Positions 653 to 45,737 of a DNA stretch of 45,737 bases are shown here, in pieces. The stretch covers positions 1-45,737 of the forward strand of contig CAITJH010000011.1 in NCBI GenBank assembly GCA_903892635.1, written 5' to 3'. Made by a program: the position numbers and the translations under genes. The notes under the pieces were generated by a model, which saw nothing but the letters and a program-made list of their open reading frames with translations, searched no databases and was not told the origin of the DNA. The DNA comes from an uncultured Actinomycetes bacterium. GTDB taxonomy: Bacteria; Actinomycetota; Actinomycetes; S36-B12; UBA5976. How positions within the stretch are numbered: position 1 is the first letter of the stretch; the number at the start of each line of letters is the position of its first letter.

Positions 653-1144
653 ATGGCCGATTCAAGTATGGACATCGTCAGCAAAGTTGATCGTCAAGAG
701 GCAGACAATGCGCTCCAACAGGCTGCCAAAGAATTGGCGACGCGCTTTGACTTTAAAGGAACTGACACTGTGATCGAGTGGAAAGGCGAGCTCGGCGTCG
801 AAATCACCTCAACGACTGAAGATCGAGCGAAGGCTGCTCTAGAAGTTTTCCGCGAAAAGCTTGTCAAGCGCGGCATCAGCCTCAAGTCTTTCAAGGCTGG
901 CGACCCTCGAGTGTCCGGCAAGGAATACAAGATCAACGGCGACTTCAAGGCAGGCATCAGTCAAGAACAGGCCAAGAAGATCGGCAAGATCATTCGCGAT
1001 GAAGGCCCAAAGAACGTCAAGACTCAAATCCAAGGTGAAGAACTTCGAGTCACGAGCAAGAGCCGTGATGACCTGCAAGAAGTTCAGCGACTCTTGAACG
1101 AATCGGATTTGGACTTCGCGGTTCAGTACACAAACTACCGATAA
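653..1144 (+). CDS. yajQ: YajQ-family cyclic-di-GMP-binding protein
   Basis: This 163-residue protein matches the YajQ (DUF520) family over its full usual length. The N-terminus has the typical [16 protein letters not shown] pattern, then TRFDFKGTD, and the C-terminus has [15 protein letters not shown]. The family adopts two ferredoxin-like folds. Some members bind cyclic-di-GMP or nucleotides and act as effectors of transcription regulators; the role in actinobacteria is not well defined. The ATG at 653 has an AAGGAGA ribosome-binding site about 8 nt upstream. The gene is divergent from tRNA-Tyr and monocistronic by position. Its stop codon abuts a remnant of a nuoI-like gene on the other strand. 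Confidence 0.93.
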
Positions 1145-1198
1145 TTATTTCTTGCGACGACCACTTGGTGGTTCGTCGAGAAGCGGCGCTTTCGTTCC
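1145..1198 (-). pseudogene. 3'-end remnant of a nuoI-like gene
   Basis: On the minus strand these bases read GTKAPLLDEPPSGRRKK followed by TAA. The real nuoI-like gene ending at 5208 finishes GTPAPQLDEPPSGRRKKS. The last 11 residues are identical and the preceding ones are similar, but with different codons. An in-frame stop lies 15 nt further upstream (1214-1216), so nothing longer is coded. Its stop immediately follows the yajQ stop, so yajQ and a nuoI-like gene were probably convergent neighbours before the intervening K+ module arrived. Alternatively this is only a repeated hairpin that happens to be coding at the other copy. Confidence 0.5.
1147..1180. repeat. 34-bp direct repeat, left copy, with internal hairpin
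   Basis: Identical over 34 bp to 5213-5246 in the same orientation. The core is an imperfect palindrome (CGACGACCAC, TTG, GTGGTTCGTCG, one bulged base) and could form a hairpin at the junction of convergent genes. Similarity continues more weakly for about 18 bp to the right of the identical block. The two copies bracket the kimA-kinase-regulator module. Confidence 0.8.
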
Positions 1199-1255
1199 AG
1201 ACTTGCCACATTGTTAAGAAGACATAAAGGCCAGTTTCCAGTAATTGATTCTTTG

Positions 1256-1261
1256 TAATTT
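1256..1261 (+). promoter_or_regulatory. Possible -10 box for a leaderless kimA transcript
   Basis: TAATTT fits the actinobacterial TANNNT -10 pattern and lies 9 nt before the kimA ATG. No ribosome-binding site is visible between them, so transcription may start at or near the ATG. No convincing -35 box is seen. Confidence 0.3.
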
Positions 1262-1270
1262 TCTAAATGC

Positions 1271-3205
1271 ATGACTAGCAAAACGAAACGCTTTTTCATC
1301 GGGCGACCCATGCGCACAGATGCAGCACATCACACATTGCTTCCGAAATGGCTCGCACTCCCCGTTTTCTGCAGCGATCCCCTTTCGAGCGTGGCATATG
1401 CAACTGAACAAATCTTGATGGTTCTTGTACTCGGTGGGTTATCTGCATTGCACTTCGCTCCAATGGTGGGTGCTGCTGTAGCAATTCTGATTGCCATCGT
1501 GGTCGCAAGCTATACCCGAACTATCCATGCCTATCCCAATGGCGGTGGAGCATATGCAGTTGCTAAAGATCAATTTGGTGATCGAATCGCACTCATCGCA
1601 GCAAGCGCACTAATCATCGACTACATCCTCACCGTAGCCGTGTCAATTACCTCAGGCGTAGCGAACTTCATCTCTGCTTTCCCCGTACTCGCTGCGGATT
1701 CAGTTCCGTTGTCGCTTGGCACCATCGTTATTATCACGATGGTAAACCTTCGTGGCATTAAAGAGTCTGGACGAGCCTTTGCAGTTCCAACTTATGCATT
1801 CATTGGCTCAGTTCTCACAATGATCGTGATGGGAATCTACCGACACTTCACGGGAGCCGTTGTACAAGCTCCAACAGCTCATCTTCAGGTGCATGCCCAA
1901 AGTCTGAGTCAACTCGCGATGGCATTTCTAATCCTCCGGGCATTTGCCTCTGGATGTACGGCACTAACAGGCGTCGAGGCAATTTCAAATGGAGTGCCAT
2001 TCTTCCGCGAGCCAAAGCCGCGCAATGCAAGTCGCACCCTCATTGGAATGGGCGTATTGGCGGTCACCATGTTCGTCGGTGTCACATGGCTTGCGATCAC
2101 TTCCGGCGCCAAAATCGCCGATAATCCCATTGATCTTGGACTACCCGCTGGAAGCACCCAACAAACTGTGATCGCTCAAATTGGAACAGCAGTTTTTGGG
2201 AGCGGAAGTTTTGGATTCTTTTTCTTGCAAATGTCCACGACGTTCGTATTGATCTTGGCTGCCAATACCTCCTACAACAGCTTCCCGATTATGGCCTCGG
2301 TTCTCGGTCGTGACGGATTCTTACCTCGACAATTTGGTCGCCGCGGCGATCGTCTGGTCTATAGCAACGGGGTCATCATCCTGGCCGTGGTTTCAGCACT
2401 ACTGGTGTGGCTCTACAAGGCAAACGTGACACATCTGGTTCAACTTTATATTCTCGGAGTGTTCCTAAGTTTCACTATTTCCCAAGCCGGCATGGTGAAG
2501 CGATGGATGAAAATTATTCGCGAGTCCGCTGAACACCAGTCATCAAGCACGTACATTTCGCTTGTAACGAATTCGCTTGGAGCCGTCATCACAGCAATTG
2601 TCCTTGTCATAGTTGTAATCACAAAGTTCCAGCATGGGGCATGGATCGTCGTTATTGGAATTCCTACCCTCGTCTTTGTCATGAACGGAATTAAGCAGCA
2701 CTACGCGAATAGTGACATGCGTCTACGCGCTCAACCGCAAGGAGTAGAGCTACCAGGCCGAGTACATGCAGTGGTTCTGGTTTCTCGCGCGAATGCCCCC
2801 AGCTTGCAGGCGTTGGCATATGCAGCGGCAACAAAGCCAAGTACGTTGGTTGCCGCGCATGCAGTCACTTACCCCGATCGTGCTGAAAAGCTCAGAAACG
2901 ATTGGAGTGAACGTGCAGTACCTGTTGACTTGGTCCTCCTTGAATCGCCATACCGAGATGTGACTTCCCCAGTGCTGAAATTTATATCTGAATTGCGCGC
3001 CGATAATCCTGGCGATCTCATCACAGTATTCATTCCGGAATACGTGGTAATTCATTGGTGGGAGAACCTGCTCCACAATCAGTCTGCACTTAGGCTTAAA
3101 CGGAGATTGCTTTACGAGCCTAATGTGCTTGTTACGAATGTTCCCTTGATTGGGACTCGATACGAACAAGAAATATATGAAGCTTCTCGTCGGGTAAAGA
3201 ACTGA
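1271..3205 (+). CDS. kimA: KimA-type potassium importer (KUP/APC superfamily)
   Basis: This 644-residue membrane protein resembles Bacillus KimA (YdaO) along its length. The N-terminal signature is FFIGRPMRTDAA, followed by CSDPLSSVAYATEQIL and later YPNGGGAYAVAKD and CTALTGVEAISNGVPFF. About twelve hydrophobic segments fill residues 25-460. A soluble C-terminal domain of about 170 residues ends with the KimA-like HNQSALRLKRRLLYEPNVLV. KimA proteins are H+-coupled K+ importers of the inner membrane, and in Firmicutes their expression or activity responds to c-di-AMP. The gene has no obvious ribosome-binding site and may be leaderless. It is followed after 8 nt by a KdpD-like kinase and its regulator, which supports a K+ role. 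The 90 nt available upstream show no recognisable c-di-AMP riboswitch. Confidence 0.88.
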   Translation: MTSKTKRFFIGRPMRTDAAHHTLLPKWLALPVFCSDPLSSVAYATEQILMVLVLGGLSALHFAPMVGAAVAILIAIVVASYTRTIHAYPNGGGAYAVAKDQFGDRIALIAASALIIDYILTVAVSITSGVANFISAFPVLAADSVPLSLGTIVIITMVNLRGIKESGRAFAVPTYAFIGSVLTMIVMGIYRHFTGAVVQAPTAHLQVHAQSLSQLAMAFLILRAFASGCTALTGVEAISNGVPFFREPKPRNASRTLIGMGVLAVTMFVGVTWLAITSGAKIADNPIDLGLPAGSTQQTVIAQIGTAVFGSGSFGFFFLQMSTTFVLILAANTSYNSFPIMASVLGRDGFLPRQFGRRGDRLVYSNGVIILAVVSALLVWLYKANVTHLVQLYILGVFLSFTISQAGMVKRWMKIIRESAEHQSSSTYISLVTNSLGAVITAIVLVIVVITKFQHGAWIVVIGIPTLVFVMNGIKQHYANSDMRLRAQPQGVELPGRVHAVVLVSRANAPSLQALAYAAATKPSTLVAAHAVTYPDRAEKLRNDWSERAVPVDLVLLESPYRDVTSPVLKFISELRADNPGDLITVFIPEYVVIHWWENLLHNQSALRLKRRLLYEPNVLVTNVPLIGTRYEQEIYEASRRVKN

Positions 3206-3213
3206 GGCACGCG

Positions 3214-4539
3214 ATGTTTAAATTTAAATGGAAGCTCTTGACTGGACTCTTGTATTCCCTCACTCAAGTCTTCGCGATGTGGCAGATTAGCAAGTTGAGT
3301 TCCATTGACATCACAGTGGTGCTGCTGTTCAATTTGCTCTTTCTTGCGACCTTCAGCGTAGTTACTGGGCCATGGATTAGCGCATGTAATGCCTTGACCT
3401 CGGTGGCTTCAATTAACTGGTTTCTCGTCCCCCCTTATGGAACCTTTCGCGTCGATAGCGCCGATAACTTATCTGCTCTCATTGTTTTCACATTTATATC
3501 CGTGGGTATCGCGCTCCTCCTTCAGTTGACCGGTCGACTAAGGACTCAAGCATCAACTGCTGAAGCACAATCCGAAATGCTCTCCTCTGTCATCAGTCCA
3601 GTTAGCGGACTTAAAGGAACGTTGTCGTCAATCCAAGAACAACTTGATCTCAGCGACATCACATTGATAAAGCCAAACGGAGAAATTGCGGTAGCTACGA
3701 ATGAAGTACTCGCACGCGACTCCGTTCACATCAATAACGAAAACGTAGCAATTACGTTCCATACGAAGAACGGGTTTGATCTAATCGGCTATGGCAACCC
3801 GCGAATCGCCTACGACGATAACTTCTTGGGTTCGCTGGCAGACGTAGCAGTTCGTGCATATATATCTGAGCAAGTGGAAAACGAAATTCAAAAGAACGTA
3901 GAGCTCACAACCGACAATGAATTTCGTTCAGCACTAATTGCTTCAATTGGACATGATCTACGCACTCCACTTGCCACAATGCGACTGGCCGTAGATTCGC
4001 TCAAGCATGAGACCCTTAATGCTGACGAAGCAAAAGAGACAATCGAACATCTTGAAGCAAGCACTTACCGACTAGCGGACACGCTAGAGAACTTGCTGGA
4101 CATGAGTCGGATTGAAAGCGAGAGCATCTTGCCACATTGGGAGATGGTCAATGTGAGTGCGCTTATTCGACGCTTAATCCGCGAACAATCGGAGAGCCGA
4201 ATCATTCTTATTGGTGATGATGTTCCCCCGATTACAAGTGATGACACACTACTCGAACGAATCATTGCCAATGTATTGGGTAACGCTTTGCAGCATGATC
4301 AATCAGGAGGGTACGTCCGCGTCAAGCAATCGAGAGAGAACGGGAATACGCTCATCGAGATCATCGATCAAGGAGCTGGATTTGATCCAAACAACTTGCC
4401 AACAACTTCCGAAGGTAGTCGGCTTGGAATTTCAATTGTGAAAAGCTTCTCTAAGTTCCTGGGAATTGATGTCAGCTTTGAGCCAAGTGAATTTGGTACT
4501 GGAACTCATGTTCGAATCAAGATTCCTGAGCAAAAATGA
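3214..4539 (+). CDS. KdpD-like sensor histidine kinase lacking the N-terminal KdpD/USP domains
   Basis: The 441-residue protein starts directly with a DUF4118-type membrane domain (four hydrophobic segments, residues 10-105, with the KdpD-like NWFLVPPYGTF). A linker of about 130 residues follows. The HisKA box has SIGHDLRTPLA with phospho-acceptor His247, and a HATPase domain has the N-box NVLGNALQHD, G1 DQGAGF and G2 GSRLGISIVKSF. Classical KdpD is about 900 residues, with Walker-type KdpD and USP domains in front; these are absent. The gene begins 8 nt after kimA and overlaps the regulator by 4 bp (ATGA). It is therefore the likely K+/turgor sensor controlling kimA. The true signal cannot be read from the sequence. 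Confidence 0.85.
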   Translation: MFKFKWKLLTGLLYSLTQVFAMWQISKLSSIDITVVLLFNLLFLATFSVVTGPWISACNALTSVASINWFLVPPYGTFRVDSADNLSALIVFTFISVGIALLLQLTGRLRTQASTAEAQSEMLSSVISPVSGLKGTLSSIQEQLDLSDITLIKPNGEIAVATNEVLARDSVHINNENVAITFHTKNGFDLIGYGNPRIAYDDNFLGSLADVAVRAYISEQVENEIQKNVELTTDNEFRSALIASIGHDLRTPLATMRLAVDSLKHETLNADEAKETIEHLEASTYRLADTLENLLDMSRIESESILPHWEMVNVSALIRRLIREQSESRIILIGDDVPPITSDDTLLERIIANVLGNALQHDQSGGYVRVKQSRENGNTLIEIIDQGAGFDPNNLPTTSEGSRLGISIVKSFSKFLGIDVSFEPSEFGTGTHVRIKIPEQK

Positions 4540-5213
4540 CAGACCTACTACTCGTTGAAGACGACGGCCAACTTCGGCGAATCTTGAGTCAGCGTTTGAC
4601 TCGCAGAGGATTTCATGTCATTCAAGCTGCATCCGTAAATGAAGCTAAAAGTAAGTTTTCTCAAACACATATCGGTTTAGTCATTCTCGACTTAGGTTTG
4701 CCTGACTACGATGGTTCTGAATTTATTACGTGGGTTCGTCACACCGAGAGTACTCCAGTAGTTGTACTCTCGGCACGTCGAAGCCAACTCGATAAAGTTA
4801 ACGCCCTCAATGCTGGAGCAGATGACTTTCTTACCAAACCATTTGGGTTTGAGGAACTTGTCGCTCGCATTCATGCCACTCTTCGCCGATCAGGAGCAGC
4901 GACTTCGCCCCTAACCTTCCAGAGTGGCGGTCTTGTCATAGATCCACAACATCTCAAATGCCAACGCGAAGACATCGAAATTCACTTCACTCCGATCGAG
5001 TGGAAAATTCTTGAGCTGCTACTTAGCGCTCAGGGACGCTTGGTGAGTTACGAGGAACTTGTCTCCCGAGTATGGGCTAGTTCAGCGAAAGATCGTCGGG
5101 CAGCTATCCGCGTTCACATTGCAAATATTCGAACCAAACTCGAAGAGGATGCTGCCCACCCACAGTTTGTTTTAGCTGTACCGGGTTTGGGGTATCAATT
5201 CGACCAATCATGA
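4536..5213 (+). CDS. OmpR/KdpE-family response regulator
   Basis: This 225-residue two-domain regulator has a receiver domain (1-115) with acidic residues E8, D9 and D10, phospho-acceptor D52 in VILDLGLPDYDG, and K101 in LTKPFG. A winged-helix OmpR-type DNA-binding domain fills residues about 130-222 (FTPIEWKILELL and the C-terminal VPGLGYQF). It closest resembles KdpE by its receiver wording and by its KdpD-like partner. Its start overlaps the kinase stop (ATGA), so the two are translationally coupled. Its stop overlaps the convergent nuoI-like gene by 6 bp. Probable targets are the kimA promoter and other K+ genes; this is inference. Confidence 0.88.
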   Translation: MTDLLLVEDDGQLRRILSQRLTRRGFHVIQAASVNEAKSKFSQTHIGLVILDLGLPDYDGSEFITWVRHTESTPVVVLSARRSQLDKVNALNAGADDFLTKPFGFEELVARIHATLRRSGAATSPLTFQSGGLVIDPQHLKCQREDIEIHFTPIEWKILELLLSAQGRLVSYEELVSRVWASSAKDRRAAIRVHIANIRTKLEEDAAHPQFVLAVPGLGYQFDQS

Positions 5214-5612
5214 TTTCTTGCGACGACCACTTGGTGGTTCGTCGAGTTGCGGTGCAGGTGTTCCATCGAGTCGCTTGGCACTCGGCAACGACGCTGCCAG
5301 TTCATCGATTCCATAAACAACTTCGCTGCGGGATTTTCCTGAGACCATATCCTTCTCGGACCAGAACAATGCATCGAACGGACATAACTCGATGCAAATG
5401 CCACACCACAAGCAATGGCTGAAATCGATCTGGAAAGAATCCAAAACATTTTTCATCGCTGGACGTCGTGCGTTGCTGTATTGCGGCGCATCAGGATCAG
5501 GCTCGGCATGAGCCTCAATAGATATACACCAGTCTGGGCATTCGCGAACACATAACATGCACGATGTACACGATGAAGGATGCAGCGCAATTGTTGCATG
5601 GGGATTTGTCAT
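5208..5612 (-). CDS. NuoI/ferredoxin-like 2[4Fe-4S] protein (second copy)
   Basis: This 134-residue soluble protein has two CxxCxxCxxxC clusters (C15, C18, C21, C25 and C67, C70, C73, C77), as in NuoI, HycF or 8Fe ferredoxins. It is not the NuoI of the main complex I operon, which is longer at 174 residues. I place the start at ATG 5612 because it overlaps the stop of the nuoC-like gene (ATGA) and has GGAG upstream. The C-terminal tail is basic, LDEPPSGRRKKS, and its coding DNA contains the right copy of the 34-bp repeat. It is the third gene of a tight operon with nuoC-like and nuoB-like genes, divergent from korAB. Likely role: electron relay for ferredoxin-level electrons. Confidence 0.85.
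   Translation of the reverse strand: MTNPHATIALHPSSCTSCMLCVRECPDWCISIEAHAEPDPDAPQYSNARRPAMKNVLDSFQIDFSHCLWCGICIELCPFDALFWSEKDMVSGKSRSEVVYGIDELAASLPSAKRLDGTPAPQLDEPPSGRRKKS
5213..5246. repeat. 34-bp direct repeat, right copy, inside the nuoI-like gene tail
   Basis: Identical to 1147-1180 and in the same orientation, 4.07 kb apart. Here it lies wholly inside the coding tail of the nuoI-like gene (residues LDEPPSGRRKKS on the minus strand). Its first base is the last base of the response-regulator stop codon. Confidence 0.85.
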
Positions 5613-6100
5613 AACTGCCACTCCGCAAGAACGCCAGGTGGAAGTGTCAGGCGTCGACGTGCTTGTGCATCTGGTTCAACTGCTCCGGGCCAAGGCTTGT
5701 CGAGGCGAGCTTGAAGAGCAAAGTCGCGCCGCAAAGGATGTCCTGCGATAGGAGCATCGAAAGCTACGCCGTCTGCAAGTCCCGCAAATTGCACTCCAAG
5801 TAACTGTCGCGCCTCTTGTTCATGAAATTGCGCGATCGGAAATAAATCTGACAACGTCACGGGCTCAGATGAATCACAGTGCATCGAGACCATGACTGGA
5901 GATTGCACATCGACATCAGTCACGCGAGTAACTATCTGAAAGTTGTCATCACCTTCATGTACGCTAGCAAGCCATTCCAACCGAACATATCCTTCACGCT
6001 GAAGTTCAGCATGAAGCGAATGCCAATTTTCGGGAGCAACGTCAATCCAGCGCGCACCGTCTTGTTGTCGATCACCTGTCAGTTGTGTCGTCAATGTCAT
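5609..6100 (-). CDS. NuoC-like (30 kDa) subunit, hydrogenase-type second copy
   Basis: The 163-residue protein carries the NuoC family signature FHEQEARQLLGVQFAG followed by HPLRRDFAL. This wording resembles the NuoC-type domain found at the front of HycE/HyfG-type hydrogenase large subunits more than the main operon NuoC ([13 protein letters not shown]). In those systems the domain is fused to, or encoded beside, a NuoD-like subunit; none is present here. The start overlaps the nuoB-like stop (ATGA) and the stop overlaps the nuoI-like start. It should be a cytoplasmic scaffold subunit for the NuoB-like partner. Function is inferred from family only. Confidence 0.8.
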   Translation of the reverse strand: MTLTTQLTGDRQQDGARWIDVAPENWHSLHAELQREGYVRLEWLASVHEGDDNFQIVTRVTDVDVQSPVMVSMHCDSSEPVTLSDLFPIAQFHEQEARQLLGVQFAGLADGVAFDAPIAGHPLRRDFALQARLDKPWPGAVEPDAQARRRLTLPPGVLAEWQL

Positions 6101-6507
6101 GCCGTCACCAACCCAGCAGCTTGCTCAAGTGCGCGAGCCAGATCATGCGGCGTAGGCGGGCAACCCGGGACATGAATATCGACTGGCACAATCTGATCGG
6201 CACCTGCCATAACGGAATACGAATCCCAATACGGTCCTCCGCCAATTGCGCAGGCACCGAATGCCACGACGACCCGAGGTTCGAGCAACGATTCATACGC
6301 ATCTTTGATAACAGGACCCAAGGCATGAGTCACCGTGCCAGCAACAACCAAGATGTGAGCCGCTTGATCATGACCAAGTCCAGCCAAAATATCTGCTTGA
6401 GCCACTAAATCCAAGGCAGACGCCTCAACGCCGCAACAGGCTAGCCCTGCTTCAAGTACCGAGATATTGGACGTGGTCACCTCCCAAGCGTACGAGACGC
6501 CAGCCAT
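6097..6507 (-). CDS. NuoB-like [4Fe-4S] subunit (second copy)
   Basis: The 136-residue protein keeps all four ligands of the N2-type cluster of NuoB/hydrogenase small subunits: C24 and C25 (GLACCG), C86 (GACA) and C116 (PGCPP). It differs strongly from the main NuoB, and PYWDSYSVMAGADQIVPVD is typical of the group 4 hydrogenase-like branch. I choose ATG 6507 because GAGGA lies about 8 nt upstream; a longer open frame to 6693 runs back over the korA start. It heads the three-gene operon. The short region to korA must hold the promoters for both directions. Without a NuoD-like large subunit it cannot form a hydrogenase by itself. Confidence 0.82.
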   Translation of the reverse strand: MAGVSYAWEVTTSNISVLEAGLACCGVEASALDLVAQADILAGLGHDQAAHILVVAGTVTHALGPVIKDAYESLLEPRVVVAFGACAIGGGPYWDSYSVMAGADQIVPVDIHVPGCPPTPHDLARALEQAAGLVTA

Positions 6508-6616
6508 CGAGTGCATCCTCGCGCTGACAGCGAATTTCGGGGACTCAAATATGCCAACCGAGGCGTTAAGTGGGACGATAGGAGGACAAAACTTAAGCAA
6601 TTCAAGAGGTTGGCCC
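6508..6616. promoter_or_regulatory. Divergent promoter region between the nuoB-like gene and korA
   Basis: This 109-bp gap is the only space upstream of both divergent operons, so it must contain both promoters and any shared control site. An AAGAGGT ribosome-binding site for korA lies at 6604-6610. I cannot assign -10/-35 boxes with confidence. Confidence 0.5.
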
Positions 6617-8479
6617 GTGAGCAAAGAAGTTGTCGAACTAGACCATGTGAGTATCCGATTCGCTGGTGATTCTGGCGATGGCATGCAGCTCACCGGAGAT
6701 CAGTTCACATCGACCACAGCCATCTTGGGCAATGACTTAACAACGCTTCCAGACTTTCCTGCCGAGATCCGCGCACCAGCCGGAACCCTGCCTGGCGTAT
6801 CTGCATTCCAATTGCACTTCGGAAACGCAGACATTCTTACACCAGGCGATTTTGCCGATGTACTCGTTGCCATGAACCCAGCCGCTTTGAAGGCAAACCT
6901 CAAAGAATTGCGCAAAGGTGGCGACCTTCTAGTTAACACAGATGAATTTGGCGCACGTGCCTTAACCAAAGTGGGATACGAAACCAACCCTCTTGAAGAT
7001 GGTTCGCTCGATGGATACAACGTTCATCCAATTGCATTGACATCGATGACCGTCGAAGCTCTTAAAGAATTCGATATGTCGAAGAAAGAAGCTGAACGAG
7101 CAAAGAACATGTTTGCTCTTGGCATGTTGTTGTGGATGTTTACTCGTCCTCTTGAACCAACGATCAAGTTTCTCGATGCAAAGTTTGGCAAAAAGCCAGT
7201 CATCCTTGCGGCTAATAAGAAGGCACTTCAGGCTGGATGGTCGTTTGGCGAAACCACTGAAAGCTTCGCAACACAGTTTGTTGTTAAGCCGGCTTCGATG
7301 CCAACAGGTACCTACCGAAACATTCACGGCAACCTTGCAACTGCATACGGCTTGATCGCAGCATCAAAGCGTTCTGGCCTGCCACTGTTTCTTGGCACGT
7401 ACCCGATTACTCCTGCGTCTGACATCTTGCACGAATTAAGCAAGCACAAAGGTTTCGGTGTTCGCACATTCCAAGCCGAAGACGAGATTGCTGCAATCGG
7501 CGCGGCACTTGGTGCAAGTTACGCAGGCATGCTTGGCGTCACCACAACGTCAGGTCCCGGCGTTGCACTGAAGTCAGAAACGATTGGCCTTGCTGTTGCT
7601 CTTGAACTACCGCTAATCATCATTGACGTTCAGCGTGGTGGACCATCAACAGGGTTGCCCACTAAGACCGAACAAGCAGACTTACTTCAAGCAATGTTTG
7701 GTCGAAATGGTGAAGCACCAGTGCCAATCGTTGCGCCACAATCACCAGCTGACTGTTTTAATGCAGCCATTGAAGCGGCTCGAATCGCAATTACGTACCG
7801 GACTCCTGTGTTCTTGCTCTCGGACGGATACGTTGCCAATGGTGCAGAGCCTTGGCTTATTCCAACCGAAGACAGCCTTCCAACAATCGATCCGAAGTTT
7901 GCCACTGGCCCGAATCACACTTTGGAAGATGGCACAGAAGTGTTCTGGCCCTTCAAGCGAGATCCCGAAACCTTGGCACGCCCATGGGCAATCCCGGGAG
8001 TGGCTGGGCTCGAACACCGTATCGGCGGTATTGAAAAGCAGGATGGCACAGGAAATATTTCCTACGATCCTGCCAACCACGATTTCATGGTGCGCACCCG
8101 TCAAGCAAAGGTTGACGGTATTGCCAAGACCATTGAGCCATTGCTCGTAGACGATCCATCGGGCGCTGCAAAGACTCTGGTCATTGGATGGGGTTCAACG
8201 TATGGACCGATCCAAGATGCATGCCGCAATCTTCGCGATGAAGGCATCCAAGTTGCTCACGCACAAGTGCGCCACCTGAATCCATTCCCGGCGAACCTCG
8301 GCGAAGTGATCAAGTCATACGACAAGGTTGTTGTTCCAGAAATGAACTTGGGGCAGCTCAACATGTTGTTACGTGCCAAGTACCTCGTGGACACAATCGG
8401 CTTTAACCAAGTTCGCGGTTTGCCTTTCAAGACTCAAGAATTGATGGATGCCATCAAGGAAGTAGCATCACATGGCTGA
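6617..8479 (+). CDS. korA: 2-oxoacid:ferredoxin oxidoreductase, fused gamma-alpha subunit (KorA)
   Basis: This is the 620-residue fused subunit of actinobacterial 2-oxoglutarate:ferredoxin oxidoreductase. The N-terminal gamma domain begins at residue about 8 (IRFAGDSGDGMQLTGDQF) and runs to about 190. The alpha (pyrimidine-binding) domain follows, with GTYPITPASDILHEL, FQAEDEIAAIGAALGA and TTTSGPGVALKSETIG. It makes reduced ferredoxin while converting 2-oxoacid plus CoA to acyl-CoA and CO2, or runs in reverse. I choose GTG 6617 because AAGAGGT lies 6 nt upstream; the frame is open further upstream but would overlap the divergent gene. It overlaps korB by 8 bp. Substrate (2-oxoglutarate rather than pyruvate) is inferred from the family. 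Confidence 0.9.
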   Translation: MSKEVVELDHVSIRFAGDSGDGMQLTGDQFTSTTAILGNDLTTLPDFPAEIRAPAGTLPGVSAFQLHFGNADILTPGDFADVLVAMNPAALKANLKELRKGGDLLVNTDEFGARALTKVGYETNPLEDGSLDGYNVHPIALTSMTVEALKEFDMSKKEAERAKNMFALGMLLWMFTRPLEPTIKFLDAKFGKKPVILAANKKALQAGWSFGETTESFATQFVVKPASMPTGTYRNIHGNLATAYGLIAASKRSGLPLFLGTYPITPASDILHELSKHKGFGVRTFQAEDEIAAIGAALGASYAGMLGVTTTSGPGVALKSETIGLAVALELPLIIIDVQRGGPSTGLPTKTEQADLLQAMFGRNGEAPVPIVAPQSPADCFNAAIEAARIAITYRTPVFLLSDGYVANGAEPWLIPTEDSLPTIDPKFATGPNHTLEDGTEVFWPFKRDPETLARPWAIPGVAGLEHRIGGIEKQDGTGNISYDPANHDFMVRTRQAKVDGIAKTIEPLLVDDPSGAAKTLVIGWGSTYGPIQDACRNLRDEGIQVAHAQVRHLNPFPANLGEVIKSYDKVVVPEMNLGQLNMLLRAKYLVDTIGFNQVRGLPFKTQELMDAIKEVASHG

Positions 8480-9524
8480 GACATTTGCTTCACTCTCGTT
8501 AGTTCCAAAGGCTGATGCTCCACAGTCAGCAAAGGACTTCAAGACTGACCAAGAAGTGCGTTGGTGCCCCGGTTGCGGTGACTACGCAATCTTGGCCGCC
8601 GTTCAAGGTTTCATGCCCGAACTCGGCGTCAAGCGCGAAAACATTGTGTTTGTTTCAGGCATCGGATGCTCAAGTCGATTCCCGTACTACATGAACACTT
8701 ACGGTGTGCATTCAATTCACGGCCGTGCTCCAGCAATTGCTACGGGCTTGGCTGCTTCACGACCAGATCTTTCGGTTTGGGTTGTGACCGGAGATGGCGA
8801 TGCGTTATCGATCGGTGGTAATCATTTGATCCACGCATTACGTCGCAATGTAAATTTGAAGATCCTATTGTTCAATAACCGTATTTATGGGTTGACCAAA
8901 GGCCAGTTCTCGCCTACCTCCGAGACTGGCAAAATCACCAAGAGCAGTCCAGTGGGCTCCGTTGATCATCCATTCAATCCACTATCAGTCGCGATTGGTG
9001 CCGAGGCTACGTTCGTTGCTCGCACAATTGATAGCGATCGTCAGCACTTGCAATCAGTATTGCGCGCAGCGGCTGAACACGAAGGCACTGCGTTGATTGA
9101 GATCTACCAGAACTGCGATATCTTCAACGACAATGCGTGGGAACCGCTCAAGAATCCTGACACTCGCGATGATGTGACGATTCGACTAGTCCATGGCGAA
9201 AAGCTCATCTTCGGTTCACAACTTGATCGCTGTGTTGTTCGCAAGGCCGATGGAACGCTTGCAGTTGCGAACGTTGCCGATGTAGCAGAGTCTGAAATTG
9301 TTGTGCATGACGCTCATAACGTTGATCCGTCCTACGCTTTTAGTTTGTCGCGTCTGTCGCATCCAGAAACCTTGCAAGATACTCCGATTGGTGTATTCCG
9401 CGATGTTAAGCGCCCAACATTTGAATCTGGACTACGTGCTCAGATTGAAACTGCCGAGGCTGTTGCTGGTGCGGGAGATCTCAACGCTTTGCTTCAAGGC
9501 AAAGACACGTGGGAAGTCCGTTAA
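8472..9524 (+). CDS. korB: 2-oxoacid:ferredoxin oxidoreductase, beta subunit (KorB)
   Basis: The 350-residue TPP-binding subunit has the N-terminal WCPGCGDYAIL (C32, C35), then GIGCSSRFPYYMNTYG and the TPP/Mg motif TGDGDALSIGGNH with NNRIYGLTKGQ. It pairs with KorA to form the oxidoreductase and carries the path from TPP to ferredoxin. The start overlaps the korA end, so expression is coupled. It converges with rarD and the two overlap by 4 bp. The divergent nuoI-like protein is a plausible electron acceptor; this is contextual inference. Confidence 0.92.
   Translation: MAETFASLSLVPKADAPQSAKDFKTDQEVRWCPGCGDYAILAAVQGFMPELGVKRENIVFVSGIGCSSRFPYYMNTYGVHSIHGRAPAIATGLAASRPDLSVWVVTGDGDALSIGGNHLIHALRRNVNLKILLFNNRIYGLTKGQFSPTSETGKITKSSPVGSVDHPFNPLSVAIGAEATFVARTIDSDRQHLQSVLRAAAEHEGTALIEIYQNCDIFNDNAWEPLKNPDTRDDVTIRLVHGEKLIFGSQLDRCVVRKADGTLAVANVADVAESEIVVHDAHNVDPSYAFSLSRLSHPETLQDTPIGVFRDVKRPTFESGLRAQIETAEAVAGAGDLNALLQGKDTWEVR

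Positions 9525-45050: not shown

Positions 45051-45737
<687 letters not shown>

Follow-up and report, generated by a model that had tools for sequence, protein, structure and literature searches.

The window analysed in this study, a stretch of 45,737 nucleotides, belongs to a 1.68-Mb draft assembly in 92 contigs, which is 96% complete with an estimated contamination of 2.1%. Toward its left end lies yajQ (653–1144, plus strand), which codes for a member of the c-di-GMP-binding DUF520 family (Pfam DUF520, 1.4e-54; NCBIfam NF003819, over the cut-off). It is followed on the same strand by three genes encoding a KimA-type potassium transporter, a sensor histidine kinase and a KdpE-like response regulator, and then by an intact nuoI-like gene for a 2x4Fe-4S ferredoxin-type subunit (5208–5621, minus strand), which converges with the regulator gene. 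The nuoI-like gene is part of a separate nuoB/C/I-like trio (5208–9524), which does not reach the cut-offs of the NuoI, NuoC and NuoB families. The trio adjoins, back to back, a pair of genes like those for 2-oxoacid:ferredoxin oxidoreductase, and it may be a ferredoxin-linked accessory module. A canonical nuo operon is also present in the window, at about 11.5–26.1 kb. Both ends of the contig fall in genes for repetitive proteins, an IPT/TIG-domain protein (3–359) and a Pro-Glu repeat protein (45609–45731), which probably explain the contig breaks.

The kimA gene (1271–3205, plus strand) is intact and encodes 644 amino acids, of which residues 4–625 match the solved KimA structures (PDB 6s3k, 8b70 and 8b71) with an E-value of 3.6e-120. 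It is preceded by a non-coding stretch (1200–1270, plus strand), presumed to hold the promoter region of the module, where neither a c-di-AMP riboswitch nor any other Rfam match was found. The sensor histidine kinase (3214–4539, plus strand) has a DUF4118 membrane sensor followed by HisKA and HATPase domains in a KdpD-like C-terminal half; these were the only domains found, and the N-terminal KdpD/Usp domains of KdpD were missing. The DUF4118 sensor is typical of KdpD. The OmpR/KdpE-type response regulator (4536–5213, plus strand) consists of Response_reg and Trans_reg_C domains, and its best NCBIfam model was KdpE (1.5e-51), with 175 bits lying below the equivalog cut-off of 325. KdpA was not found in any of the 23 genomes of the genus, while it was detected in five control genomes, and this KdpDE-like pair is therefore not there for a Kdp pump. 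Its linkage to kimA suggests that the two-component pair probably controls the transporter gene. The KimA of this locus thus resembles the structurally solved protein over nearly the whole chain but differs in being linked to a KdpDE-like pair and in having no Rfam match upstream. We infer that the module would work in K+ uptake through KimA under the regulation of its own KdpDE-like pair.

The three genes are bracketed by two 34-bp direct repeats (1147–1180 and 5213–5246, neither assigned to a strand). The preliminary description of this DNA had called them identical and had taken the right copy for the coding 3' end of the nuoI-like gene; the identity was exact, and the translation of the right copy as part of the intact gene ends in LDGTPAPQLDEPPSGRRKKS and a stop codon. 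The C-terminus encoded by the repeat is LDEPPSGRRKK. An ungapped alignment lengthens the match to 63 bp with 84% identity (1137–1199 against 5203–5265), and by a simple random-sequence estimate an exact 34-bp repeat in 45.7 kb would have a chance of about 1e-12. No other long repeat is dispersed in the window; the only further family is a 12-bp tandem repeat at the right end. The left copy lies in an orphan nuoI-like 3' tail (1145–1199, minus strand), a hybrid of the core and a diverged extension that we read as an insertion scar. This tail encodes KSGTKAPLLDEPPSGRRKK, and its stop (TTA on the plus strand) comes directly after the yajQ stop, the junction reading TAA TTA TTTCTTG, as in the congeners. 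The tail is thus convergent with yajQ, as had been described earlier. Beyond the core, the two tails are of different types, GTKAPLL on the left and GTPAPQL on the right. At the right copy the native TAA stop was lost, and the nuoI-like gene gained one codon (Ser), which makes its product one residue longer than that of most congeners; its TGA stop now overlaps the TGA stop of the regulator gene in the palindrome TCATGA.

Further copies of the 34 bp at unrelated gene ends, which the preliminary description had named as evidence against a scar, did not appear. The sequence occurs exactly twice in its own genome and is absent from every other genome among the 166 of the order, with up to three mismatches allowed in both searches. 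A dispersed repeat or terminator family was ruled out, as only these two copies exist in the genome and the order. The core is a near-palindrome, and its dyad symmetry follows for the most part from the PPSGRR codons. The 34-bp stretch showed no clearly better fold than its shuffles (z from -1.7 to +0.35) and has no T-run after the stem, so that a bidirectional terminator at the core is unsupported.

The comparison with relatives was made on species representatives. The closest relative, G017, shares 99% identity with the window in yajQ and 94% in the nuoI-like protein; at the DNA level the nuoI-like gene is only 82% identical. The sequences outside the two repeats both correspond to the native G017 locus, with 88% identity on the tRNA-Tyr–yajQ side and 80% on the nuoI side. 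In 16 congeners (G001, G002, G003, G005, G006, G009, G010, G011, G013, G014, G016, G017, G018, G019, G020 and G021), yajQ and the nuoI-like gene converge directly across a short spacer, with one tail and no module. The preliminary description had proposed to look at this junction in relatives for an arrangement with a single tail, and a genus in which all members carry two tails is not what we observed. In G022 the contig ends inside the tail, which follows directly after yajQ. Only G012 and G004 differ at this junction: there the neighbour of yajQ is an unrelated ORF of about 590 amino acids on the opposite strand, Ala/Lys-rich and of a secreted type (L038 2081–3847 in G012; L037/L154 in G004), the nuoI-like stop is lost with the tail extended to RRKKADK or RRKKTDK, and a second tail is absent. 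The cargo at the yajQ/nuoI-like junction is different, the kimA module here and a secreted-protein gene in these two. Since the single-tail convergent junction is usual in the genus, the module-free state is ancestral, and the insertion took place in the lineage of this genome. Against positions 5211–8476 of the window, G018 (L039) showed 81% identity in the nuoI-like gene, the second closest, and 91% in the korA-like gene, while its yajQ, at 82%, was among those of the most distant congeners. It suggests that the korA/nuoI-like region may have a mosaic ancestry.

The left extension had been described as diverged but alignable. Its pairwise alignment to the right copy gives weak support, as equally good alignments were obtained in 2 of 300 shuffles and in 9 of 204 window pieces, and it was replaced by a position-weight matrix built from the tails of 19 congeners. 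On this matrix the left extension scores 14.5 bits, where true tails reach at least 10.9 and the right copy 22.2, and only 0.003% of the window positions (3 in 100,000) score as high, which bears out the earlier description. Gapped homology on the left side much past 20 bp was considered and was unsupported by the alignment. The two copies show no difference in the core (0/33) and 7 differences in the next 19 bp, and the chance that all seven would fall outside the 34-bp core is 3e-4. The left tail therefore cannot have arisen from the right one by simple drift, in agreement with the earlier argument that the diverged part speaks against a simple target duplication. The nuoI-like tails of any two species differ at 2 or more of 33 positions (mean 7.2/33), and two cores without a difference therefore share an origin more recent than that of any two species. 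This identity could also stem from later gene conversion.

Judged by its sequence, the left tail is a different nuoI-like tail allele joined to a core identical with that on the right. Its extension is nearest to that of G018 (4/19 differences), followed by G017, G004, G012 and G006 (6/19 each). The PPSGRRKK tail was missing from all ten nuoI-like genes that were compared from other genera, and the second tail therefore came from within or near the genus. Outside the core, the left, right and G017 tails are about equally different from each other (5–7/19), so that either of the two flanking tails could be native, and the left extension could equally be the donor's. The preliminary description had called the left copy the old tail left behind; this agrees with its native position beside yajQ, whereas its extension is another allele, 7/19 different from the right copy and 4/19 from G018. 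The right nuoI-like gene appears favoured as the native one because it is closest to G017, with 82% DNA identity compared with roughly 77% for the neighbouring regions.

The KimA of the module is, by the sequence comparison, foreign to the genus. Full-length KimA occurs in only 6 of the 23 genomes of the genus. No kimA was found in G017, and the five congeners that have KimA carry it at other loci, only 48% identical and without an adjoining kinase or regulator gene. The closest homologs are found in other families, with 64% identity in G116, 59–61% in several genomes of family f3 and 57% in G156. In these, a kinase gene lies downstream (27–34% identity) and a regulator gene is present wherever the contig reaches (42–56%); the closest KimA (64%) stands in a different context. 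Matches of the window kinase among the genus-mates cover the kinase core only, at 18–30% identity. In the maximum-likelihood tree, the KimA of the window is nested among the module-bearing homologs of other families (100/99) as sister to G116 (96/91), and the congeners' KimA forms a separate group (100/100). The branch of the window KimA is very long (0.86), which makes its exact place less sure.

Acquired DNA commonly has an atypical composition, which is not required. The GC content of the module (46–50%) is close to that of the window (50%), so that composition carries no signature of recent transfer; this counts only against a transfer made very recently from a lineage with another GC. Together with the long KimA branch, it suggests that the module had long been in a moderate-GC lineage or is fast-evolving. 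The immediate donor was not among the genomes of the genus, family and order, in a sample of the class or in one GTDB contig scan, and no donor came to light that has the module adjoining a nuoI-like tail. In that scan, the nearest KimA records bearing names are labelled Candidatus Nanopelagicales or Actinomycetes, and Nanopelagicales is therefore the probable order of this genome. As vectors, viruses were rejected, with no match for KimA or the 34-bp core in viral contigs, and so were plasmids, whose homologs are all below 60% identity.

The locus therefore has the marks of a horizontally acquired islet, namely an empty site with conserved flanks in relatives and a KimA phylogeny in conflict with the host genus. 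We consider it fairly probable that a crossover in the 34 bp brought the islet to the 3' end of the nuoI-like gene after the split from G017. On the incoming DNA, which would stem from an unsampled congener or near relative, the module would have been adjacent to part of another nuoI-like tail. If a single crossover or template switch then took place in the 34 bp that the two tails share, the module would come to lie between two tail copies, a Campbell-type outcome, with a hybrid tail after yajQ and a restored nuoI-like gene ending one codon later at the stop of the regulator gene. Identity limited to the core, with 7/19 differences in the extension, is as expected at a crossover. The earlier proposal of an entry by recombination at a nuoI-like gene end is thus upheld by module-free relatives with a single tail, a 34-bp sequence that is not dispersed and a KimA from outside the genus.

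In a rival scenario of homology-facilitated illegitimate recombination, a linear donor fragment with the module and the donor's nuoI-like gene would have recombined by a homologous crossover upstream, in nuoI/nuoC, and by an illegitimate join about 55 bp inside the native nuoI tail, so that the left tail would be the native remnant and the right gene the donor's. In favour of this, the left tail keeps the native position, with the native stop immediately after that of yajQ, the 82% DNA identity of the right gene to G017 leaves room for a congeneric donor, and PMC3240628 describes one-sided events of this kind in bacteria. However, this explanation leaves unexplained an identity over exactly 34 bp followed by 7/19 differences, and the right nuoI-like gene is closest to G017, which is also the closest relative of yajQ, as expected for a native gene. 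We regard it as unlikely.

Site-specific integration, in which the 34-bp near-palindrome would be an att core, the repeats attL and attR, and the integrase supplied in trans or lost, would account for the insertion at a gene 3' end, the direct repeats, the dyad symmetry and the different extension outside the core. It is nevertheless a very doubtful explanation. No integrase, recombinase, relaxase, phage or transposase gene lies between the repeats, where only kimA, the kinase and the regulator genes are found, neither the core nor KimA was found in viral contigs, and no second element was seen at the same core in 166 genomes; the symmetry derives largely from codons, and the stretch has no clearly better fold than its shuffles. 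The earlier suggestion that the repeats would allow excision of the module is likewise unsupported, as the module has no recombinase gene and the data contain no excised form. Nor does the locus look like a transposon or IS, since there is no inverted-repeat pair at the module ends and the duplicated 34 bp have a diverged extension.

Equally improbable is a plain target duplication whose left copy drifted while selection kept the 34 bp as a bidirectional terminator. A core able to form a hairpin is indeed retained at both convergent junctions, but the lack of a T-run and the folding of the shuffles speak against a terminator, and all differences lie outside the core. Synonymous positions of the core vary freely among congeners (4–13 differences), which indicates that its exact letters are not selected. 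Finally, an assembly artefact, with the reads of two strains joined through the 34-bp identity, is conceivable in a draft of 92 contigs but extremely unlikely, because sequencing reads are usually much longer than 34 bp, the outer flanks on both sides agree with the native G017 locus and the estimated contamination is low.

Insertions at gene 3' ends flanked by attL/attR direct repeats are known from integrative elements and genomic islets. The crossover-derived islet that we favour is like them in its insertion at a 3' end, its flanking direct repeats and the gene end restored by one copy; it differs in having three cargo genes only, no integrase or mobility gene and no sister elements at the core. 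Homology-facilitated illegitimate recombination and additive integration in bacteria are dealt with in PMC3240628, and in such events foreign DNA is likewise added at a chromosomal site via short homology. Here the same short homologous tail is at both ends and both junctions map there, in an event that is inferred and was not observed. In PMC4033161, flexible genomic islands, described there as replacement islands, are exchanged by homologous recombination in aquatic prokaryotes, and the present locus is similar in that relatives differ in gene content at one set position between conserved flanks; unlike those replacement islands, it is a 4-kb addition of one operon.

It would be a rather unlikely generalization that short and highly conserved tails of genes at convergent junctions in this genus serve as recombination landing pads, with integrase-free islets moving tail to tail between species and the yajQ/nuoI-like junction used at least twice. 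The three-gene islet is a case of ordinary horizontal transfer with an unusually legible scar and not a new kind of system, and the scar changes no known mechanism. It makes legible how single operons are gained by the small genomes of this group, at gene ends that converge and without mobility genes, and it shows a unit of KimA and a KdpDE-like pair in a genus where KdpA is not detected and where most genomes are also without KimA.
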